Positions 34,513-64,000 of a stretch of 64,000 nt of DNA are shown piece after piece; within the stretch, counting starts at the first letter, position 1; the number at the start of each line of letters is the position of its first letter. The notes beneath the pieces were generated by a model, which worked only from the letters and a program-made list of their open reading frames with translations, did not search any database and had not been told where the DNA came from. This DNA is from Pararhizobium sp. GTDB taxonomy: Bacteria; Pseudomonadota; Alphaproteobacteria; Rhizobiales; Rhizobiaceae. Made by a program: the position numbers and the translations under genes. The DNA lies in contig CP051237.1 in assembly GCA_017794825.1 (NCBI GenBank), positions 62,001-126,000 of the forward strand. The letters run 5' to 3'.

Positions 34513-35556
34513 ATGCTCTTATTTCTCCTCAGACGGGTCCTGATCGTGCTCCTCTCGGCGTTCTGCCTGACGCTGATCGTGTTTCTCCTGACGAATCTTT
34601 CGCCGAACCTCGAAAAACTGGCGAAGTCAGAGGCCGGCACGCGGATCACCGATCGGGAGGTTGCGGTCTGGCTGGAACAGCACGGTCATGCGCGTCCGCT
34701 TCTGGTACGCTACGCGAGCTGGCTTGGCCTCGCTCCGGCCTGGGCGCCGCCGGGCAGACATCTGCCCGGCCAATGCGCAGCCGCAGCAGAGGATGACGCC
34801 GATGCCCCCCGCTATTGCGGCATCCTGCAGGGGAACTGGGGCACCTCGACTGTCTTTCGTGGCGACGTCGCCACGATCCTCGGCGTTCGGCTAGCCCTGA
34901 CGGGCAATCTCATGCTCTGGGTCATGCTCGTGATGGTGCCGTCCGCGCTCCTCGTTGGCGTCCTTGCGGGCATGCGCGAGGGATCTGTCACGGACCGCAC
35001 GCTTTCCAGTTTCTCGATCGTCACATCCGCCACGCCGGAATACGTCTCCGGCGTAATCCTGATCGCGGTCTTCGCTTCGTCGATGACCGGCCTGAAGTGG
35101 TTCAGCGGCACCGCCGGCTCGGTGGCCGACAAGGGGCCGAGCTTCGACACGATGGTTTTGCCGGTGACGACGATTGCCCTTTACGGAATGGGCTACGTCG
35201 CCCGCATGACCCGCGCGTCGATGGCCGAGGTAATGACCCAGCAATATATCAGAACCGCGCGTCTGAAGGGCGTCAGCTTTCGCAACGTTGTCCTTAAACA
35301 CGCGCTTCGCAATGCGCTGATCGCGCCTTTCACCGTCATCATGCTTCAGTTCCCCTGGCTCCTGAACGGCGTCGTCATCGTGGAGACACTGTTCAACTAC
35401 AAGGGCTTCGGCTGGACGCTCGTGGAGGCTGCAGGAGCCAACGACATCGATCTCATGCTCGGCTGCTCCGTCGTCGCTGTGGTCGTCGTTCTCGTCACCC
35501 AGCTCCTCTCGGACCTCGGTTACGTGCTGCTCAACCCCCGGATCAGGGTGCATTGA
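34513..35556 (+). CDS. ABC transporter permease (DppB-like)
   Basis: This 347-residue inner-membrane permease of the dipeptide/oligopeptide class opens with the LLRRVLIVLLSAFCLTLIVFLL first helix and contains the EAA-loop region RTARLKGVSFRNVVLKHALRNAL. An insertion rich in Pro, Ala and Asp (about residues 75-105) lies between helices 1 and 2 in the periplasmic loop. The gene is followed after one base by the second permease. Confidence 0.92.
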   Translation: MLLFLLRRVLIVLLSAFCLTLIVFLLTNLSPNLEKLAKSEAGTRITDREVAVWLEQHGHARPLLVRYASWLGLAPAWAPPGRHLPGQCAAAAEDDADAPRYCGILQGNWGTSTVFRGDVATILGVRLALTGNLMLWVMLVMVPSALLVGVLAGMREGSVTDRTLSSFSIVTSATPEYVSGVILIAVFASSMTGLKWFSGTAGSVADKGPSFDTMVLPVTTIALYGMGYVARMTRASMAEVMTQQYIRTARLKGVSFRNVVLKHALRNALIAPFTVIMLQFPWLLNGVVIVETLFNYKGFGWTLVEAAGANDIDLMLGCSVVAVVVVLVTQLLSDLGYVLLNPRIRVH

Positions 35557-44860: not shown

Positions 44861-45250
44861 CTATTCAGCAGCGGCCATCACCTCGATTTCAACCTTGAAT
44901 TCCTCCCGCGTAAAGCCGCTGACGATAATCAACGTCGACGCCGGCGCAGGCTCCAATCCGAGCACGAATTCATCACGCGCCTGCATGTAACCCTGCATGT
45001 ATGACCGGTCGGTCACATAAGCGGTGATGTGAAAGATGCAGCTTCTGTCCATTCCCGCCTCGGCAAGGATGGCGTCTATGTTCGAAAAACAGATGTCGGC
45101 CTGCGATCGCACGTCTTCCGGAACCGATCCGTCGCCGTGCAGGCCGAGCTGGCCCGACGTCCTGACGATTCTCCGGCCAGCAGGCACTTCCACACCATGT
45201 GAATAGTGTGCAAAGGGCGGCGCAATTTGCTTTGGCGTTAGTGCTTTCAT
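44861..45250 (-). CDS. RidA family protein
   Basis: This 129-residue member of the RidA/YjgF family has VRTSGQLGLHGDG (central strand) and a C-terminal FKVEIEVMAAAE, where the conserved Glu (VEIEV) lies. It is divergent from the ABC transporter-amidohydrolase operon across 188 nt and is probably co-regulated with it. RidA-type proteins hydrolyse imines or enamines (RutC is the pyrimidine-pathway example), so a reactive nitrogen intermediate is likely in that pathway. An imperfect hairpin (TCTCAA-AAG-TTGAGA, 44829-44843) lies after its stop. Confidence 0.9.
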   Translation of the reverse strand: MKALTPKQIAPPFAHYSHGVEVPAGRRIVRTSGQLGLHGDGSVPEDVRSQADICFSNIDAILAEAGMDRSCIFHITAYVTDRSYMQGYMQARDEFVLGLEPAPASTLIIVSGFTREEFKVEIEVMAAAE

Positions 45251-45438
45251 GAACCCTACCCCTTCGATTTCGCACTGAATTTCAGGAAAAAGTACATTAT
45301 TTGGGCGTTTCCGCCCATATATGCTTATAATTTAATCTCATTCATTTGTTGAATATATTTTCAGCAGAAATTCGTTGACAATCCATTTCGACATGCCAAG
45401 TCTGGCGACAGATCGATAAAACAACATGGAGAGGTTTT

Positions 45439-46431
45439 ATGAAATCCGTATTTCTGGCTGCCGGCATCGCCGCCCTTACCGCATCGACCTCGGCTTTCGC
45501 GCTTGAGAAAGTCGCATTCGGAACGAACTGGCTAGCCCAGGCCGAGCACGGCGGATTCTATCAGTCTGTCGCGGATGGCACATACGAGGAATGCGGGCTG
45601 GAAGTCGAGATTCTTCCAGGCGGACCACAGGTCAACAACCGGGCGTTGATGCTTGCCGGCAAGATCCAGTTCCACATGGGCGGCGACATGCTGCAGGCTT
45701 TCTCCGCCGTGGAGCAAAACATTCCGGTGGTCGCCGTCGCTGCGATTTTCCAGAAGCATCCACAGGTCATCCTCGCGCATCCCGGCGAAGCGGAGACATG
45801 GGAAGACTTGAAAAACCTTACGCTGCTGATCGGCGACAACGGCTTCCAGAGCTATTATCAGTGGATGATCGCGGCCTATGGTTTCACCGCGGAACAGCGC
45901 GAGCCCTACACGTTCAACCCGGCGCCTTTCATCGCCGACCCCAAGAAGGGCATGCAGGGCTATCTTTCGTCCGAGCCCTACCTCGTCGAGAAAGAAGCCG
46001 GTTTCACGCCAGGCGTTTTCCTGATCGCCGACGCGGGCTACTCGACCTACGCCACAACCATTGAAACCATGGCCGACACGATCAAGAACAAGCCGGAAGT
46101 GGTGAAGTGCTTCGTCGAAGGTTCGATCAAAGGCTGGTACACCTATCTCTATGGCGACCGGTCCGGCGCGGACGAACTGATCAAAGCCGACAATCCGGAA
46201 ATGACCGATGACAAGATCGCCTATGCGGTCGAAAAGATGAAAGAATACGGCATCGTGGACAGCGGCGACTCGCTGGAAAAGGGCATCGGCGTCATCACGC
46301 CGGAAAAGGTCAAGGACTTCTACGACAAGATGGTGGAAGTGGGAGTCGTCGGCGGGAATATCGACTGGGAAGCGACGTTCGACAGCCAGTTCGTCGGCTC
46401 AGGCGTCGGCATGGACCTGAAGAAAGACTGA
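45439..46431 (+). CDS. ABC transporter substrate-binding protein (NMT1/THI5-like)
   Basis: This 330-residue periplasmic protein has a signal peptide (cleavage near AFA/LEK) and the NMT1/THI5-like beginning (KVAFGTNWLAQAEHGGFYQSVADGTYEECGLEVEIL). Members bind pyrimidines such as HMP precursors, sulfonates, nitrate or riboflavin-like compounds. The WLAQAEHGGFYQ pattern matches the pyrimidine/thiamine-precursor branch better than the sulfonate or nitrate branches. It is the first gene of an eight-gene operon; TTGACA at about 45374 may be part of its promoter. A stable hairpin after it (46462-46482) would favour higher abundance of this mRNA part. Confidence 0.9.
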   Translation: MKSVFLAAGIAALTASTSAFALEKVAFGTNWLAQAEHGGFYQSVADGTYEECGLEVEILPGGPQVNNRALMLAGKIQFHMGGDMLQAFSAVEQNIPVVAVAAIFQKHPQVILAHPGEAETWEDLKNLTLLIGDNGFQSYYQWMIAAYGFTAEQREPYTFNPAPFIADPKKGMQGYLSSEPYLVEKEAGFTPGVFLIADAGYSTYATTIETMADTIKNKPEVVKCFVEGSIKGWYTYLYGDRSGADELIKADNPEMTDDKIAYAVEKMKEYGIVDSGDSLEKGIGVITPEKVKDFYDKMVEVGVVGGNIDWEATFDSQFVGSGVGMDLKKD

Positions 46432-46461
46432 CGTTTATACTGACATAAACTCTGGCCTCAG

Positions 46462-46482
46462 CGGGCGGACCAAATCCGCCCG
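46462..46482 (+). ncRNA. Intercistronic hairpin after the binding-protein gene
   Basis: CGGGCGGA (46462-46469) pairs perfectly with TCCGCCCG (46475-46482) around a 5-nt loop, in the 70 nt between the binding-protein and ATPase genes. There is no U-run. Such hairpins commonly protect the upstream message from 3' decay. It is a cis-acting RNA structure, not a separate RNA gene. Confidence 0.5.
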
Positions 46483-46501
46483 TTGTCAACTGGGCAGTGA
46501 T

Positions 46502-47299
46502 ATGGAAATGCAGGTTTCAGCGGCCGAGAGTTCGGCGTCGCGCAACAAGCTCCTCACACTTCATAAAGTCGACAAGGTCTTCGGACGCGACGTGGTCGCG
46601 CTCCGGAACATGTCACTTGATATATGCGAGGGCGATTTCATCAGCCTGCTCGGCCCCTCGGGATGCGGCAAGTCGACGGCGCTGAGACTGATAGCGGGTC
46701 TGATGCAACCGACGAACGGCTTCATCCGATGGGAAGACGGACGCCAGGGCGAATCCCTGAGCGTCGTGTTCCAGGAACCGACGCTGATGCCGTGGGCGAC
46801 CGTCGAAAAGAATGTCTGGCTTCCGATGCGGCTCAAGGGCATTTCCTTCGCAAAAGTCAGGGACGACATTCGCGAAGCGCTCAATCTCGTCGGTCTGTCG
46901 GGCTTTGAAAATTCCTATCCCCGGGAACTCTCAGGCGGCATGAAAATGCGGGTTTCCATCGCGCGCGCCATGGTGACCCGGCCGAAACTTGTGCTGATGG
47001 ACGAGCCGTTTGCAGCGCTTGACGAAATCACACGTTTCAAGCTCAACAATGACCTGCTGCAGATGAAGGTGAAGATCGACTGCACGGTCGTCTTCGTCAC
47101 CCATTCTGTTTTCGAGAGCGTGTTTCTGTCCGACCGCATCGTCATAATGGCGGCGCGTCCCGGCCGGGTCATGCAGGAACTGAAGGTGGACAAGCCCTAC
47201 CCGCGGGAAGAGGATTTCAGGACCTCGAACGACTATGCCGCCTATTGCCGCGCCGCGTCGCAGGCTCTGAAAGAAGCCCAGGAAGGACCCCGGCAATGA
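46502..47299 (+). CDS. ABC transporter ATP-binding protein (NitT/TauT type)
   Basis: This 265-residue ATPase has Walker A GPSGCGKS, the Q-loop VFQEPTLMPW (typical of the SsuB/TauB/NrtD group), signature LSGGMKMRVSIAR, and Walker B LVLMDEPFAALDE. It energises the importer formed with the following permease. The start is the first ATG after the hairpin; a second at codon 3 is possible. It overlaps the permease gene by 4 nt (ATGA). Confidence 0.93.
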   Translation: MEMQVSAAESSASRNKLLTLHKVDKVFGRDVVALRNMSLDICEGDFISLLGPSGCGKSTALRLIAGLMQPTNGFIRWEDGRQGESLSVVFQEPTLMPWATVEKNVWLPMRLKGISFAKVRDDIREALNLVGLSGFENSYPRELSGGMKMRVSIARAMVTRPKLVLMDEPFAALDEITRFKLNNDLLQMKVKIDCTVVFVTHSVFESVFLSDRIVIMAARPGRVMQELKVDKPYPREEDFRTSNDYAAYCRAASQALKEAQEGPRQ

Positions 47300-48153
47300 G
47301 CGAACTCGCCCACGATCCCGTAACATCCTTCGTCGACGAGGAGGAACGCGCCCGGGCGCGCAGGGAATTGCGCAATCGCATAGGCAAATGGATACTCCCG
47401 GTCGTCGTCTTCGCGGTCGGGATTCTCGCCTGGGACTGGACCATCAGGATCAACGAGATCCCGCACTACATTCTCCCTGGGCCGGGCCTCGTGTTCCAGA
47501 CCCTCATTCAGGACAGGGCGATATTGCTGGACGCCCTCATGGTTACCTTGCAGATCACGCTGCTTGCGCTGCTGGTCGCTGTCATAGGCGGCGCCGGGCT
47601 CGCCATACTGTTCAATCAGTCGCGCCTCGTGGAAATGTCCTTCTACCCCTATGCCGTCGTTCTGCAGGTGACCCCGATCGTGGCGATCGCCCCTCTGATC
47701 TTCATCTATGTCGAAAGCAAGCTCGTTGGCCTGCTGATCTGCGCCTGGATCGTCGCTTTCTTTCCGGTGCTGTCCAATACGACACTGGGTCTCAAGAGCG
47801 CGGATCACAACCTGCGCGACCTTTTCAGCATCTACGGAGCCAATCGCTGGCAGAGACTGCTCTATCTGCAGCTTCCTTCCGCCCTGCCCTATTTTCTCGG
47901 CGGCCTGCGGATCGCCGGCGGTCTGGCGCTGATCGGTTCGGTGGTCGCCGAATTCGTGGCAGGCGCAGGCGGCATCGGCTCCGGGCTCGCCTTCCGTATT
48001 CTGGAGGCCGGCTACCGACTGAACATTCCGCGCATGTTCGCCGGACTTATCCTGATCGCCGTGACCGGCGTCCTGATCTATGCGGTTCTCAGTCTGGTGA
48101 GCCATCTCATGCTGCGGAAATGGCATGAGAGCGCAATCAAGCGGGAAAGTTGA
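47296..48153 (+). CDS. ABC transporter permease (NitT/TauT type)
   Basis: This 285-residue membrane protein of the SsuC/TauC class has about six hydrophobic segments and the EAA loop YGANRWQRLLYLQLPSALPYFLGGLRI. GGAAGGAC precedes the start, which overlaps the ATPase stop. The amidohydrolase gene follows with no gap to speak of, linking uptake to hydrolysis. Confidence 0.93.
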   Translation: MSELAHDPVTSFVDEEERARARRELRNRIGKWILPVVVFAVGILAWDWTIRINEIPHYILPGPGLVFQTLIQDRAILLDALMVTLQITLLALLVAVIGGAGLAILFNQSRLVEMSFYPYAVVLQVTPIVAIAPLIFIYVESKLVGLLICAWIVAFFPVLSNTTLGLKSADHNLRDLFSIYGANRWQRLLYLQLPSALPYFLGGLRIAGGLALIGSVVAEFVAGAGGIGSGLAFRILEAGYRLNIPRMFAGLILIAVTGVLIYAVLSLVSHLMLRKWHESAIKRES

Positions 48154-48154
48154 G

Positions 48155-49426
48155 ATGGATTTCAGGACACTTCCCACTGGCGGCGCCTTTACGCTAACCA
48201 ATTGCGTTACGCCATCCGGGTTCAGCGGCGCCGATGGCGACTTCGCCCCGGTTGACCTCGCAATCATCGACGGCAAGATCGGCTCGGATGCGAACGGCCC
48301 GGCGATCGACATGGGCGGCTCGATCGTCCTGCCGGCCTTCACCGACATGCATACGCATCTTGACAAGGGGCACATCTGGCGCCGCGCAGCAAATCCCGAC
48401 GGCACGTTCATGGGAGCGTTGACGACGGTGGGCGCCGACAGGCAGGCCAACTGGTCGGCGGAGGATGTGTGCGCGCGCATGGACTTCGCTCTGCGATGCG
48501 CTTATGCCCACGGGACGCGCGCGGTCCGCACCCATATCGACAGCCTCGCGCCCCAGGATACAATATCCTGGCCGGTCTTCCGCGAAGTCATGGAAGAATG
48601 GAAGAACCGGATCGAATTGCAGGCAAGCTGCCTGCTGACGATCGAGGCCGTCGAGCCGGACAGTCCGTTCGTTGGAACGGCTGACCGGGTCGTCGAAAGC
48701 GGCGGCGTGCTCGGCACCGTCACATTCCCTGTCCCCGATCTCTCCGAGCGTCTGGAATTCTTCTTCCGGACTGCCGCCGACCGCAATCTGGTCGTCGATT
48801 TCCACGTCGACGAAACGGGGGATCCGGCCGTACGCACACTGCGATCCATCGCCGAAACGGCGATCAAGATGAAATTCGACGCTCCGATCGTCGTCGGACA
48901 CTGCTGTTCACTGGCGGTCCAGGAAGAAGACTACGCAGACAGAACCATGGACCTCATGGCGGAGGCGGGCATCGCCGTTGTGTCGCTTCCCATGTGCAAC
49001 ATGTATCTGCAGTCGCGCGAGCCGGGCCGCACGCCGCGCTGGCGCGGCGTCACCCTCGTGCATGAAATGAAATCGCGCGGCATTCCGGTTTCCTTCGCCT
49101 CCGACAATACGCGCGACCCGTTCTACGCCTATGGCGATCTGGACATGATGGAAGTGCTGCGCGAAGCGACCCGTATCGCCCAGCTCGACCATTCCGATCC
49201 GGACTGGATACAGTCTTTCAATATGGTTCCGACCGAAGTGTGCGGGTTCTCGAGCCAGGCGCTCGAACCCGGCCACGCCGCCGACATCGTGATCTGCAAC
49301 GCAAGGGACTGGACAGAGCTCTTCGCCCGCCCGCAGTCCGACCGTATAGTATTGCGCAATGGAAAACAGATCGACAGGACATTGCCCGACTACCGGGAGC
49401 TCGACCACCTGATGGAGAATGCATGA
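48155..49426 (+). CDS. Cytosine deaminase-like amidohydrolase
   Basis: This 423-residue metal-dependent hydrolase has every catalytic position of E. coli cytosine deaminase at nearly constant spacing: H66 and H68 (DMHTHLDK), H217 and E220 (DFHVDE), H249 (VGHC) and D317 (SDN), against H61, H63, H214, E217, H246 and D313. Relatives deaminate cytosine, creatinine, isoguanine or N-isopropylammelide. The start follows the permease stop immediately (TGAG-ATG). As the first enzyme gene of the operon it probably deaminates or hydrolyses the imported heterocycle. Confidence 0.92.
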   Translation: MDFRTLPTGGAFTLTNCVTPSGFSGADGDFAPVDLAIIDGKIGSDANGPAIDMGGSIVLPAFTDMHTHLDKGHIWRRAANPDGTFMGALTTVGADRQANWSAEDVCARMDFALRCAYAHGTRAVRTHIDSLAPQDTISWPVFREVMEEWKNRIELQASCLLTIEAVEPDSPFVGTADRVVESGGVLGTVTFPVPDLSERLEFFFRTAADRNLVVDFHVDETGDPAVRTLRSIAETAIKMKFDAPIVVGHCCSLAVQEEDYADRTMDLMAEAGIAVVSLPMCNMYLQSREPGRTPRWRGVTLVHEMKSRGIPVSFASDNTRDPFYAYGDLDMMEVLREATRIAQLDHSDPDWIQSFNMVPTEVCGFSSQALEPGHAADIVICNARDWTELFARPQSDRIVLRNGKQIDRTLPDYRELDHLMENA

Positions 49427-50823
49427 CGCCGAACGTAGCCACAGCCAAGGAGAAGCTCTCCCATCTGGAAATCGACGACAACCCGGTGACCATCAAGAAC
49501 AAGAGCCGGGATTTTTTCTGGTATTCCCCCGTTCTGAAAACACGGCTCGACCACGTCGTTGGAGATTTCGTTGTGTCGCCGCGCAACGAGGACGAAGTTA
49601 TAGAAGTTCTTAAGGTCTGCTACGAACATGACTGCCCCGTGACGACGCGCGGCGCCGGAACCGGCAATTACGGGCAAGCAATGCCCTTCTCCGGCGGCTG
49701 TGTCATGCATATGAAGAATATGGCGAAGGTCAAGGAAGTGCTGCCGGGCCGCGTCATCGTGGAACCGGGCTGCCTGCTCAAGGACCTGGACGCCGCCTGC
49801 ATCGCCGCTTCCGGTCAGGAAATTCGCATGTTTTCCTCGACCTGGGCGACCGCCACCATCGGCGGGTTTGTCGCTGGCGGATCCGGCGGCGTCGGATCTG
49901 TACGCTGGGGATCGCTGCGCGATCTCGGCAACATCATCCGGTTGCGGGTGGTGACGATGGAGGAAGAACCACAGGTTCACGAGTTCACCGGCGAGGAACT
50001 CGCCCGCGTCTCCCATGCCTATGGCACCAATGGCGTCATCACCGAACTCGAAATGCCGCTTGCGCCCGCCTATGAGTGGGTCGACGTCGCGGTCGCCTTT
50101 GACGATTTCCTGGATTCAGCGAAATACGCCGACGACCTCGCCAATGAGGACGGCATACTGCTGAAACTGGCGACGCCCATCGAAGCGCCTGTTCCTTACG
50201 ATTACTTCCAGCGCTTCAAACCCTATATCCGTCGCGAACAGAACCTGGTCATGCTGATGGTCGCGCCGCAATCGATCGACGCATTCGAGACCTTCTCCAA
50301 ACGCGTTGCGAGTGCGGAGATCATCTACCGCTCGGATGACAATGACTGGGCGCGTAATCCCGGTCATATCTTCGAATACGCCTGGAACCATACGACCCTG
50401 CGCGGTCTCAAGTTCGATCCTACCATCACATATCTGCAAGTCCGCTACGGTTTTCCCGATCATCTGGAAAAGGTTGCAGAGATCCGAAAGATCTTCGGAG
50501 ACGAGGTTCCTCAGCATCTTGAAGCCATTCGCGGCAACGGCAAGATCCACTTCGCCGGACTGCCCATCGTGCGTTTCACCACCGAGGAACGCCTTGACGA
50601 GATCATCCGCATTCACGAGGACCTGGGCTGCATGATCTTCAATCCGCATCGCTACACGCTCGAGGAAGGCGGCCGCCAGATGGCCGATGCGCGCCAGCTC
50701 GACTTCAAGCGCCAGGCGGATCCGAAAGGACTGCTCAACCCCGGCAAGATGATCGCCTGGGACGCGCCCGACTGGAAATACGAGACGATGTATTCCTATT
50801 CGGGCATGCGGGAAGCCGTCTGA
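49423..50823 (+). CDS. FAD-binding oxidoreductase (VAO/PCMH family)
   Basis: This 466-residue flavoprotein has the PCMH-type FAD domain, with TTRGAGTGNYGQAMPFSGG at about residues 70-90 and STWATATIGGFVAGGSGGVGSV at about 140-160. The C-terminal part would bind the substrate, and the end (DPKGLLNPGKMIAWD) is typical of glycolate-oxidase/VAO-like enzymes. It is coupled to the amidohydrolase by an ATGA overlap. It probably oxidises an alcohol or amine intermediate with oxygen or an acceptor; the two reductases that follow could supply or accept electrons. Confidence 0.9.
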   Translation: MTPNVATAKEKLSHLEIDDNPVTIKNKSRDFFWYSPVLKTRLDHVVGDFVVSPRNEDEVIEVLKVCYEHDCPVTTRGAGTGNYGQAMPFSGGCVMHMKNMAKVKEVLPGRVIVEPGCLLKDLDAACIAASGQEIRMFSSTWATATIGGFVAGGSGGVGSVRWGSLRDLGNIIRLRVVTMEEEPQVHEFTGEELARVSHAYGTNGVITELEMPLAPAYEWVDVAVAFDDFLDSAKYADDLANEDGILLKLATPIEAPVPYDYFQRFKPYIRREQNLVMLMVAPQSIDAFETFSKRVASAEIIYRSDDNDWARNPGHIFEYAWNHTTLRGLKFDPTITYLQVRYGFPDHLEKVAEIRKIFGDEVPQHLEAIRGNGKIHFAGLPIVRFTTEERLDEIIRIHEDLGCMIFNPHRYTLEEGGRQMADARQLDFKRQADPKGLLNPGKMIAWDAPDWKYETMYSYSGMREAV

Positions 50824-51404
50824 TGCGCGCCTTTGTCCTGTTCGCACACCCGGTTCCGGAAAGTTTTTCTTCGTTTCTCCATGCCTCGGTCGTCCAGACG
50901 CTGGCGGCGCGCGGATGGGAGATCGACGATTGCGACTTGAACGCTGAGGGTTTCTCGCCGGTTCTCACCACCGAGGAGCGGCGCAACTACCACGAGGAAG
51001 ACATAAACACGGGTCCGGTCGCAGAATATGTGGATCGCCTGCAAGCAGCCGATGCGCTCATACTGGTCTTTCCGGTATGGAATTTCGGCTATCCGGCTAT
51101 CCTGAAAGGTTTCTTCGACCGTGTGTTTCTGCCGGGCGTCTCCTTCAAGCTCGTCAATGACAAGGTGGCGCCTAATCTGACCAATATTCGCAAGCTCGCC
51201 GCCGTCACCACCTATGGCGGAAGCCGGCTTCGAGCCTTTCTTTCCGGAGATCCGCCGCGCAAGGTCGTCACCCGACCACTGCGGTTTGTGATGCATCCGC
51301 AAACCAAAACGCGGTATCTTGCGCTCTATGACATGAATCGCGCGGACGAGCCGAAGCGAAACCGTTTCGTCGAACGCGTGAAGACAGAAATGGAGCGTTT
51401 CTGA
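50823..51404 (+). CDS. NAD(P)H-dependent oxidoreductase, flavodoxin fold (NQO/KefF-like), copy 1
   Basis: This 193-residue protein has the FMN/FAD phosphate loop HPVPESF near residue 9 and the family stretch FPVWNFGYPAILKGFFDRV at about residues 78-96. Such enzymes reduce quinones, flavins or nitro/azo compounds with NAD(P)H. It overlaps the FAD oxidase gene by one base (TGATG). It is clearly related to its downstream neighbour, so the two may form a heterodimer. Confidence 0.9.
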   Translation: MRAFVLFAHPVPESFSSFLHASVVQTLAARGWEIDDCDLNAEGFSPVLTTEERRNYHEEDINTGPVAEYVDRLQAADALILVFPVWNFGYPAILKGFFDRVFLPGVSFKLVNDKVAPNLTNIRKLAAVTTYGGSRLRAFLSGDPPRKVVTRPLRFVMHPQTKTRYLALYDMNRADEPKRNRFVERVKTEMERF

Positions 51405-52013
51405 ATGCATGTACTGGTGGTCTACTGCCACCCGCACGAGGCAAGCTTTACCGCTGCCGTCCGGGATGAGGTGACCGCCTGTCTTGAGCAAACCGGCGCA
51501 GAGACGCGATTGGTCGATCTCTATGCGGAGGCGTTCCAACCGGTGCTGGGAAAAGTCGAATGGTCTGCGTACGAGGACACCGGTTCGAGAAGCGACGACA
51601 TTCTGCGGCATGCGGAACTCCTGAAATGGTGCGACACGCTGATCTTCGTCTACCCGACCTGGTGGTACGGACATCCGGCGATCCTTAAAGGGTGGATGGA
51701 GCGTATTCTCTTGCCCGGCGTTGCCTTCGAGATGCCGGATGGCGGCGACATCAGGCCGATGCTGCGCAACGTACGGAGACTCGGCGTTTTCACGACCTGT
51801 GGCGCCTCGCGCTGGCTGACCTTCGTCGTCGGCGCTCCTGGCCGCAAAACGATATTGCGCGGCATTGGCCTGCTTTGCCACAGCCGCGTGCGAAAGACCT
51901 TTGTCGCACACTACAGAATGGACAGTTCGACCGATGAAAGCCGAAAGCGGCATCTGGCGCGCGTACGCAAAGCCGTCGACAAACTGACATCCAGCAGCGG
52001 AGCAGGACGATGA
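51405..52013 (+). CDS. NAD(P)H-dependent oxidoreductase, flavodoxin fold (NQO/KefF-like), copy 2
   Basis: This 202-residue paralogue has CHPHEASF at residues 8-15 and YPTWWYGHPAILKGWMERI at about 82-100, the classical NQO signature. It begins directly after the stop of copy 1 and overlaps creatininase by 4 nt. Two adjacent reductases of one family are unusual and point to a reduction step, or to a dedicated flavin or quinone cofactor supply, in this pathway. Confidence 0.9.
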   Translation: MHVLVVYCHPHEASFTAAVRDEVTACLEQTGAETRLVDLYAEAFQPVLGKVEWSAYEDTGSRSDDILRHAELLKWCDTLIFVYPTWWYGHPAILKGWMERILLPGVAFEMPDGGDIRPMLRNVRRLGVFTTCGASRWLTFVVGAPGRKTILRGIGLLCHSRVRKTFVAHYRMDSSTDESRKRHLARVRKAVDKLTSSSGAGR

Positions 52014-52819
52014 AAGACCAGCATCTTTGGGCCTCCTACAAGACGACCGAATACCGGAACATCGATCCTCAAAAGACAATCGCGATCCTACCAACGGCGG
52101 CGATCGAGCAGCATGGGCCGCACCTGCCGGTCGGCGTCGATACGATGATCAACCAGGGCATGCTCGAGACGATGAGTGAACGCGCGCCGGAAACGCTCGA
52201 TATCCGTGTGCTTCCGGTTCAGGCGGTCGGCAAATCGAACGAACATCTGCATGCGCCGGGAACGCTGACATTGCCCGCCGAACTGGTGATTGGCATGTGG
52301 ACCGAGATTGGTCTTTCCGTCGCGCGGGCCGGTGTACGAAAGATGGTGATTATAAACTCTCACGGCGGCAATCTCGACATCATCGGCATCGTCGCGCGCG
52401 AACTGCGCGTGCGCGCCGGCATGCTGGTCGCCAAGTGTCAGTGGGGCGGCCTGGGCCATCCGGAAGGCATGTATTCCGATCACGAGCGCGCCTACGGCAT
52501 CCACGGCGGCGATGTCGAAACTTCGCTGATGCTGCATTTCCAGCCTGACCTGGTTGACATGACAAAGGCGGAAAACTTTCGTTCAACCGCAGAAGACATA
52601 GCGCCTCCGGACCGTCTGACGCCGACAGGCCCGACCTCATATGGATGGATCGCATCGGACCTGAATCCGGCCGGCGTGGTGGGCGACGCGTCAGCCGCCA
52701 CGGCACAAAAAGGACAGGCCACCGCCATTCATCAAGCAGACAGCTTCATCGAATATCTACGAGAAATCGAACGTTTCGATATCGAGCGTTTTCCGTTTCC
52801 GCCTGAAAGCAGGCAGTGA
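52010..52819 (+). CDS. Creatininase family protein
   Basis: This 269-residue amidohydrolase has the creatininase metal-site motifs: E33 and H35 (IEQHGPHLP), D44 (VDTMI), H118 (NSHGGN) and E170 (HGGDVETS). Family members open creatinine or act on formamidopyrimidine-type flavin precursors (ArfB), and MftE is a peptidase. A cyclic amide or formamide is therefore the likely bond. It ends the operon and is followed by a 7-bp hairpin. It starts within the stop of the second reductase gene (ATGA). Confidence 0.92.
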   Translation: MKDQHLWASYKTTEYRNIDPQKTIAILPTAAIEQHGPHLPVGVDTMINQGMLETMSERAPETLDIRVLPVQAVGKSNEHLHAPGTLTLPAELVIGMWTEIGLSVARAGVRKMVIINSHGGNLDIIGIVARELRVRAGMLVAKCQWGGLGHPEGMYSDHERAYGIHGGDVETSLMLHFQPDLVDMTKAENFRSTAEDIAPPDRLTPTGPTSYGWIASDLNPAGVVGDASAATAQKGQATAIHQADSFIEYLREIERFDIERFPFPPESRQ

Positions 52820-62388: not shown

Positions 62389-64000
62389 TTATCCGCGCAT
62401 GCGTTCGCCCAGTGGGTCGAAAGGTGGTTCGGTCAGGATCCGGGCGGGGCGGCGCTTGCCGAGGACCTCGATCTCGAACACGCCATGCTCCTCGATTCCG
62501 GCCATGGCGGCGGGCACGTAACCCTGGGCAAGCGACATGTCGACGAAGTGTCCATAGCCGCCTGAGGTGACCCAGCCTACGACGCGCCATTCTCCGTCCC
62601 TTTGGGGGTGGATTTTCGGCATCTCTGAGCCCGACGAATCAAATCGGGGCGCGCCGTAGCCGTGCGGCGGGCTTACGAGACCGTGGTCGACGTCACCTAC
62701 TTTGGCCCACACAGGTTCATCGCCCATCACATCCGTGTCGTCCGCGTTGATCGCAAAACTGACCCGGCGCGCCTTCGAACCCTTTTCATGTTCTTCCGCC
62801 GCTTTTTCCATTCCGATGAAATCATTTTTGGACAGTTTTACGAAACGCTCCATCGCGCCTTCAAACGGGCCGTAGATCGGCCTGAGTTCGGCGAACCATG
62901 TCGGGAAATTTTTCTCCAACCGCATGGACAGCAATGCCCGCATGCCGAAATCGACGATGCCGAATTCCGCGCCGGCCTCCTTGATCGCCAGATAAACCGT
63001 CCGCTCGTAGGCCGGCTCCATCCAGATCTCGTAGCCGAGATCGCCGGTATAGCTGATCCGGTTTACCTTGCAGGGACAACCTGCGACGTCCATTTCGCGA
63101 TAATCCATGAATCGAATCGCTTCGTTCGAGACATCGATGTCAGCCAGTTTTTCGAGCACGGCGCGCGACCGCGGTCCGGCGATGGACAGACCGACAAGTT
63201 CCTGCCCGAAGCGCCGCAGACACACGGTTCCGTCAGAAGGCAGATGGCCCTCGAACCAGCGCATGTGATAAATTTGCGCGGCCGTGGATCCCCAGACCAT
63301 GAAACGCTCGTCGCCGGCATTGGCGATCGTGAAGTCCCCGATCAATTTGCCTTCATGATTGAGCATCGGCGTCAAAACGATGCGGCCGGGCTTCGGCATC
63401 GTGTTGGTCATCAGCCTGGACAGCCAACTTCCAGCGCCCGGGCCCGACACTTGATACTTGGCGAAATTGGCGATCTCCGTCACGCCGACGCGTTCCCTGA
63501 CGGCCCGCACCTCGGCGCCGACATGGGCGAAATCATTGGACCGATGAAAGGACAATTTGTCTTTTGCTTCCCCGGCGCTCGGCGCAAACCACAGAGGCGT
63601 TTCCAGACCCCAGGTATCGCCCATGACGGCGTGGTTGTCGCGCACCATAATATCGTACAGCGGCGTCGTCTGCTGCGGTCTTGCTGCCGGGAGCTCTTCG
63701 TTGGGAAAACGGATCGAGAAGCGCCGGGAATAGTTTTCCCTCACTTTGGCGTTGGTGTAGCTCAGCGACGTGAAATCTCCGAAGCGGGCAACATCCATGC
63801 CGAAAATGTCGTGGCCCGGATCGCCGTCGGTCATCCAGTTCGCCAAAGCAAGACCGACGCCGCCGCCCTGCGAGAAGCCGGCCATCACGGCGCAGGCGCA
63901 CCAGAAATTCGTCAGCCCCTGAACCGGCCCGACAAGCGGATTGCCATCCGGCGCGAACGTGAATGGGCCGTTGACTATCTGCTTTATGCCGGCTCTTCCG
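62389..64000 (-). CDS. FAD-dependent dehydrogenase fused to GcvT domain (sarcosine/dimethylglycine dehydrogenase-like), 5' end outside window
   Basis: About 536 residues of the C-terminal part are visible. The segment KQIVNGPFTFAPDGNPLVGP, then VMAGFSQGGGVGLALANWM, is the end of a DAO-type FAD domain. A linker follows, then a GcvT aminomethyltransferase domain (HRSNDFAHVGAEVRAVRERVGV..., NEGKL-type region, GYEIWMEPAYER) and the GcvT C-terminal barrel. Such fusions demethylate N-methyl amino acids (dimethylglycine, sarcosine) onto tetrahydrofolate. The frame is open to the right edge. Full proteins have about 810-860 residues, so roughly 290 are missing. Specificity is not predictable. Confidence 0.9.
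   Translation of the reverse strand, partial: GRAGIKQIVNGPFTFAPDGNPLVGPVQGLTNFWCACAVMAGFSQGGGVGLALANWMTDGDPGHDIFGMDVARFGDFTSLSYTNAKVRENYSRRFSIRFPNEELPAARPQQTTPLYDIMVRDNHAVMGDTWGLETPLWFAPSAGEAKDKLSFHRSNDFAHVGAEVRAVRERVGVTEIANFAKYQVSGPGAGSWLSRLMTNTMPKPGRIVLTPMLNHEGKLIGDFTIANAGDERFMVWGSTAAQIYHMRWFEGHLPSDGTVCLRRFGQELVGLSIAGPRSRAVLEKLADIDVSNEAIRFMDYREMDVAGCPCKVNRISYTGDLGYEIWMEPAYERTVYLAIKEAGAEFGIVDFGMRALLSMRLEKNFPTWFAELRPIYGPFEGAMERFVKLSKNDFIGMEKAAEEHEKGSKARRVSFAINADDTDVMGDEPVWAKVGDVDHGLVSPPHGYGAPRFDSSGSEMPKIHPQRDGEWRVVGWVTSGGYGHFVDMSLAQGYVPAAMAGIEEHGVFEIEVLGKRRPARILTEPPFDPLGERMRG

Follow-up and report, generated by a model that had tools for sequence, protein, structure and literature searches.

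A conserved nine-gene locus of Pararhizobium sp. as a candidate pterin catabolic operon with a Ser105 Rid protein

Gene content of the locus

The 64,000-nt stretch of Pararhizobium sp. DNA considered here (contig CP051237.1, positions 62,001 to 126,000; hereafter the window) comes from a genome represented by a single 6.06-Mb contig. At positions 44861-52819, it carries a nine-gene set in which a Rid-family gene on the minus strand diverges from eight plus-strand genes (45439-52819). These encode an ATP-binding cassette (ABC) importer, a deaminase resembling the cytosine deaminase CodA, a flavin adenine dinucleotide (FAD) enzyme, two NAD(P)H reductases, and a creatininase-family hydrolase (Table 1). 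A preliminary description of the window had proposed an operon for the breakdown of an N-heterocyclic compound. This proved to be the best reading of the locus, and we argue below that the compound is most likely a pterin.

Gene families were assigned with Pfam and NCBIfam models on the window translations, and all nine genes of the preliminary description were recovered in place and in the families it had named. The starts of the permease, deaminase, and FAD enzyme were read by eye from the translations, without a prediction tool. With these starts, neighboring genes from the ATPase through the creatininase overlap or lie at most 1 base apart, so that a single transcript from the ATPase onward is likely.

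Table 1. Genes of the locus, with positions in the window
Gene product	Position	Strand	Evidence
Rid-family protein, Ser105 replacing catalytic Arg105	44861..45250	-	Pfam Ribonuc_L-PSP 71 bits; NCBIfam Rid models below cutoff; residue checks
Periplasmic substrate-binding protein, NMT1/THI5-like	45439..46431	+	Pfam NMT1 62 bits; no NCBIfam match; one weak PDB match
ABC transporter ATPase (ABC_tran)	46502..47299	+	Pfam 113 bits
ABC transporter permease (BPD_transp_1)	47296..48153	+	Open reading frame opens 47245; ATG 47296 overlaps ATPase stop
Amidohydrolase-superfamily deaminase (Amidohydro_3), predicted pterin deaminase	48155..49426	+	Open reading frame opens 48125; PRK07583 597 bits; CodA alignment
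VAO-type FAD enzyme (FAD_binding_4), 6v42 relative	49423..50823	+	594 bits, nearly full length
Flavodoxin-fold NAD(P)H reductase 1	50823..51404	+	Pfam Flavodoxin_2 98 bits; NQO-like PDB matches
Flavodoxin-fold NAD(P)H reductase 2	51405..52013	+	Pfam Flavodoxin_2 112 bits; NQO-like PDB matches
Creatininase-family hydrolase, predicted ring-opening lactam hydrolase	52010..52819	+	Pfam Creatininase 229 bits; below cutoffs of the 3 NCBIfam models matched

The nearest named relative is the metagenome-assembled genome Rhizobiaceae bacterium MnEN-MB40S (locus L004), which has all nine genes and a FAD enzyme 95% identical to that of the window. A palindrome between the divergent genes (TGGGCG-TTTC-CGCCCA) was considered as an operator and rejected, as it is missing in L004 and recurs in a looser form in 1 of 47 other intergenic regions. 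Promoter-like sites (6 observed, 3.1 expected, standard deviation 2.0) and terminator-like sites (5 observed, 7.9 expected) carried no weight in our conclusions.

Conservation and spread of the gene set

An alignment of 13 FAD-enzyme sequences was used to scan one genome per species, which gave at least 584 confirmed stretches, and the best 80 were analyzed. This set of loci was picked by the FAD enzyme, and some of its members are cut by contig ends. The deaminase adjoins the FAD enzyme in all 80, with -9 to +48 bases between the alignment ends. The reductase and the permease were each found in 79 loci, the ATPase in 77, and the binding protein in 75, followed by the creatininase (68/80) and the Rid gene (62/80). 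When the count is restricted to the 63 loci flanked by 6 kb or more on each side, 45 are complete, 8 are without the creatininase, and 10 are without the Rid gene. A gene for a 2-oxoglutarate/Fe(II) oxygenase is added in 35 of the 80 loci, where it probably provides a further oxidation.

Two further observations concern gene content. In seven of the eight full-flank loci without a creatininase (L035, L037, L039, L045, L046, L048, and L068), the 2-oxoglutarate oxygenase gene follows the reductases; the eighth, L049, has neither. A 2-keto-4-pentenoate-hydratase-like gene lies between the Rid gene and the importer in 4 of the 80 loci (L008:5063-5857, L009, L010, and L013).

A further search covered 297 genomes of the order, for which the sequence of PDB entry 6v42, a relative of the window FAD enzyme, and the window deaminase served as separate queries. 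FAD-enzyme matches were obtained in 108 genomes, at a threshold of E 1e-60 that lets paralogs in (G036, G144, G171, G215, G250, and G274 have only matches of 41-50% identity), and deaminase matches were likewise obtained in 108. Both were present in 103 genomes, the FAD enzyme only in 5, the deaminase only in 5, and neither in 184, counts that ignore shared ancestry and that we use by themselves, without Fisher's P. The two genes lie within 300 bases of each other in 96 genomes. The preliminary description had raised the prospect of the enzymes occurring separately in most genomes, which is not so for this pair. The importer, reductases, and creatininase were counted near the FAD enzyme rather than genome-wide. 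Taken together, the nine genes form a real, conserved unit, far from chance.

The same gene kinds recur around FAD enzymes of 35-40% identity in Pantoea, Rahnella, Klebsiella, Comamonadaceae, and Alloyangia, and also in genomes of the phylum outside the class, with looser versions of the operon in named beta- and gammaproteobacteria. The Pantoea cluster comprises a PDR/VanB reductase, a 399-aa CodA-like protein with the Rid gene directly after it, a creatininase, an importer, and the FAD enzyme. In L123, L124, and L125, a second FAD paralog with an adjoining creatininase gene lies near the first FAD enzyme, and on a short contig (L129) the FAD paralog stands alone with Rid and creatininase genes; the paralog occurs without a creatininase in 3 of the 14 stretches fetched (L126, L131, and L135). 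The layout of L123 is compact and divergent: one strand carries Rid, an 8-oxoguanine-deaminase-family gene, creatininase, and the FAD paralog, and the opposite strand carries the importer, the CodA-like deaminase, the FAD enzyme, and a reductase. In L124, a GGDEF/EAL-type signaling gene, by our own reading of its sequence, precedes the creatininase and FAD paralog.

A related unit was seen on a plasmid of Agrobacterium tumefaciens F2 (L121:11084-17032), with a creatininase, a FAD paralog (61% identical to that of L070), a THI5-like importer, and a 2-oxoglutarate oxygenase. No deaminase is annotated in this cluster, which perhaps acts on a ring that bears no amino group.

A quick tree built from 55 FAD enzymes placed those of the window and L004 inside a 25-row clade (SH-aLRT 100); wherever the other rows of this clade carry a family name, it is Paracoccaceae or Roseobacteraceae. 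This placement suggests that the operon may have moved between orders.

Evidence on the substrate

The main lead to the function of the operon is that its FAD enzyme is related to 6v42. The window enzyme aligns with this entry over residues 9-467 of 469 (594 bits) at 56% identity by BLAST and 58% in the genome search, and the depositors titled the structure 'flavin oxygenase with cofactor bound involved in folate catabolism'. The closest protein found to 6v42 is from Hoeflea (90% identical), and a CodA-like gene adjoins the FAD gene in 30 of the 30 nearest listed loci to 6v42 in the order. A structure predicted for the window FAD enzyme was mediocre (mean pLDDT 62) and served only for reading the 6v42 title.

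The deaminase matches the NCBIfam model PRK07583, named cytosine deaminase, at 597 bits against a cutoff of 403, and its best PDB sequence matches are cytosine deaminases. The metal-binding and catalytic residues H76, H78, H227, E230, H259, and D327 are kept in all 80 loci and align with E. coli CodA. The full cytosine deaminase active site that had been claimed for this protein therefore holds for these residues but not for the glutamine of the CodA motif FPQEG, the residue in contact with cytosine: the window has threonine, and none of the nine CodA-like proteins aligned (the window and eight relatives) has the glutamine. These results bear on the possibility that the substrate is a monocyclic aminopyrimidine (cytosine, 5-methylcytosine, or the thiamin pyrimidine HMP), which would be imported, deaminated, oxidized on its ring or side chain, and opened by the creatininase-family enzyme. 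Such a substrate would fit the model name, the PDB matches, and the importer, as HMP-like compounds are known ligands of NMT1/THI5-type binding proteins, but it is at odds with the absent glutamine and with the title of 6v42, which names folate and not pyrimidine catabolism, and we consider it unlikely.

An undescribed pathway of pterin degradation was reportedly suggested by the authors of Fan et al. 2013 in their abstract. Arad3529 and PDA of Variovorax F1, both pterin deaminases tested by experiment, resemble CodA. The Variovorax PDA is a 399-aa protein with 37% identity to Arad3529, and the accessible part of that paper describes a conserved 'endoribonuclease' gene downstream of it (PMC9513972), which we read as Rid-type. 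The name CodAch2 is given to a pterin deaminase in a figure legend of a further source (PMC13081902). No protein named as from A. radiobacter K84, the source of Arad3529, was among the 120 homologs listed, and Variovorax was not among the plasmid records listed (40 of 291 and 25 of 688). As a further relative, we considered the Pseudomonas sp. ADP pADP-1 amidohydrolase (L137:7941-9272), which is 44% identical to the Pantoea CodA-like protein and lies next to an ABC importer, not far from atzD; it was set aside, its kinship being at the family level only.

Residue 105 of the Rid protein is serine, where TdcF has arginine. Serine occupies this position in all 62 loci with a Rid gene and in 8 of 8 annotated relatives aligned, gamma and beta ones included, and the protein falls below the NCBIfam TIGR00004 cutoff (45.4 vs. 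106.25 bits). On these two grounds canonical RidA identity was ruled out, and the RidA label of the preliminary description was dropped together with its imine-removal step. RutC needs Arg104, which aligns with Arg105, according to the part of the source available (PMC8113886). A particular Ser105 kind of Rid protein appears to go with these clusters and, because serine replaces the catalytic arginine, it is predicted not to serve imine removal.

A second, weaker pointer to pterins comes from additional deaminases in related clusters. An 8-oxoguanine-deaminase-family gene occurs in two alphaproteobacterial clusters: that of L124 lies next to Rid (646 vs. 532 bits), and that of L123 is 80% identical to it. 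Rahnella and Klebsiella carry a PRK12393 relative on the divergent arm, and L040 and L175 carry more distant ones. The family of these second deaminases is said to include isoxanthopterin and pterin-6-carboxylate deaminases (PMC5270733). The operon of Rhizobium johnstonii 3841 lies on plasmid pRL12 and comprises creatininase, LysR, importer, deaminase, FAD-enzyme, and Rid genes together with a single reductase gene. In this strain, paoABC genes for a molybdenum oxidoreductase resembling xanthine dehydrogenase (L177:1-3772) stop roughly 230 bases short of the operon's creatininase gene, and in Agrobacterium CFBP7129 they are about 3 kb away from the operon. Purines, pterins, and aldehydes are all substrates of xanthine oxidase (PMC5270733), so these neighbors would fit a pterin or a purine.

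The 8-oxoguanine-deaminase-family genes in a few related clusters and the paoABC neighbors, though such enzymes take pterins and aldehydes too, lend themselves to another reading, in which an oxidized or modified purine (8-oxoguanine, isoguanine, or guanine derivatives) would be degraded by the same chemistry. An SLC23-family transporter gene, from a family with a nucleobase role, lies 1.5 kb from the Alloyangia cluster and would fit as well. Guanine and pterin enzymes also overlap (PMC5270733). A purine is nevertheless decidedly unlikely in our view, as the 6v42 title points away from it and genes for urate or allantoin do not appear among those listed for the annotated clusters examined, whose gene tables are incomplete.

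In the creatininase-family enzyme, E33 is conserved in 68 and H35, H38, D44, H118, and E170 in all of the 69 loci with an alignable copy; these residues belong to the metal-site motif. The enzyme misses the equivalog cutoff of the creatininase model TIGR04448 (83.4 vs. 235 bits), and on this ground we rejected a creatinine or hydantoin route consisting of a CodA-like creatinine deaminase and a creatininase-type hydrolase. Such a route, which draws on family names only and would leave the FAD enzyme and the NQO-like reductases without a place, is barely plausible.

A PDR/VanB reductase takes the place of the flavodoxin-fold one in the Pantoea, Rahnella, and Klebsiella clusters, suggesting that the reductases supply electrons or reduce the ring.

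Proposed route and comparison with known systems

We propose that the operon is most likely a pterin (oxidized-folate) catabolic unit for the import, deamination, oxidation, and ring opening of pterins, which make up the ring portion of the vitamin folate, with the substrate and the order of steps inferred from protein families and gene neighbors. The NMT1-type ABC system would import a free pterin, for example, pterin-6-carboxylate, and the CodA-like enzyme would hydrolyze its 2-amino group, yielding a lumazine and ammonia. The FAD enzyme would then oxidize the ring on its pyrazine side, with C7 as the most likely position, while the two NAD(P)H reductases would supply electrons or make the dihydro form. 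Oxidation at C7 is favored by the presence of the isoxanthopterin deaminase family in related clusters, isoxanthopterin being 7-oxopterin. The creatininase-family enzyme would hydrolyze the resulting lactam and open the ring, and the Ser105 Rid protein may act on a later intermediate rather than as an imine deaminase. Among the ring types listed in the preliminary description, pterin gained outside support from the 6v42 title and, weakly, from the second deaminases; pyrimidine, flavin, and imidazole gained none.

Alternatively, the FAD enzyme might oxidatively cleave the C9-N10 bond of folate or pteroate, much as cytokinin dehydrogenases, which share its fold, cleave a side-chain amine. We rank this role lower because no carboxypeptidase G (glutamate carboxypeptidase) or aminobenzoate gene was found in the annotated clusters examined, whose gene tables are incomplete; this also weighs against intact folate as the substrate.

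Several other points weigh against a pterin catabolic unit. The folate assignment of 6v42 is that of the depositors' title alone, and its function would be carried over at about 57% identity to an enzyme that sits in a Rhodobacterales clade, separate from the 6v42 and Rhizobium clades. The NCBIfam label of the window deaminase is 'cytosine deaminase', and this protein may or may not be an orthologue of Arad3529 and the Variovorax PDA. In L171, from outside the class, a 400-aa candidate is 33% identical to the window deaminase and 35-37% identical to two rhizobial ones, and no Rid gene was found after it; the same locus carries both reductase types, which weakens the argument from PDR/VanB replacement. 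The second deaminases are rare: among 135 loci searched (30 of them only 3-4.4 kb long), 2 have the 8-oxoguanine type and 3 the PRK12393 type, and the latter occurs in 1 of 7 more. Finally, the full-flank loci without a creatininase or Rid gene indicate that these two genes are not needed everywhere.

More tentatively, and with the balance slightly against it, the set could form the heart of a widespread proteobacterial pathway, so far undescribed, for mineralizing the pteridine ring of folates and pterins. Such a pathway would combine dedicated import, deamination, flavin-dependent (and often Fe(II)/2-oxoglutarate-dependent) ring oxygenation, and creatininase-fold lactam opening, with a new class of Ser105 Rid protein acting on the ring-opened intermediate.

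Two features of the window lie apart from these genes. A protein with folate-binding aminomethyltransferase (GCV_T) and FAO_M domains is encoded about 10 kb off (62389-63888, minus strand) and was judged to be outside the operon. The Rfam model Cis52_sRNA (Ruegeria cis52) matches at 35136-35312 on the minus strand (73.1 vs. 56 bits), opposite an ABC permease gene.

A full-text search of open papers, made mostly without subscription papers, found the operon gene set described nowhere, so a prior description is possible. The preliminary description had recognized no characterized pathway, which agrees with this search as regards the gene set but not as regards its single enzymes, since two enzyme types of the route are already known. 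In the accessible part of its text, the Variovorax paper ends at deaminated folate and pteroate (PMC9513972). The novelty lies in the operon as assembled here, in its occurrence across three proteobacterial classes, and in the accompanying Ser105 Rid protein. For the route by which bacteria feed the pteridine ring of folate and of pterin pigments back into the nitrogen and carbon cycles, gene assignments are poor. If our proposal is correct, pterins are broken down for nitrogen and carbon, and a gene pair present in 103 of the 297 genomes of one order supplies specific enzymes for the steps that are missing. The 'cytosine deaminase' database label would then be incorrect for these deaminases, and the clusters would provide a Rid protein with chemistry unlike imine removal.

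Among known systems, the window FAD enzyme shares with 6v42 and 6v43 the VAO-type family over nearly its full length, and near relatives of both stand beside the same deaminase family; it differs in its Rhodobacterales clade, and its oxygenation of a pterin or folate is a prediction. The window deaminase and the pterin deaminases (Arad3529/CodAch2 and the Variovorax F1 PDA) are CodA-like amidohydrolases of similar size, with pterin activity predicted for the former, and the Rid-type gene near the Variovorax PDA matches the Rid gene of the operon. The 8-oxoguanine/isoxanthopterin deaminases belong to a different amidohydrolase subgroup and occur as second deaminases inside a few related clusters, but are absent from the window operon. 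The rut pyrimidine operon, which contains a flavoenzyme, is likewise an N-heterocycle catabolic operon with a Rid protein, RutC. Its enzymes are different, however, and RutC has a needed Arg104 where the window Rid protein has serine.

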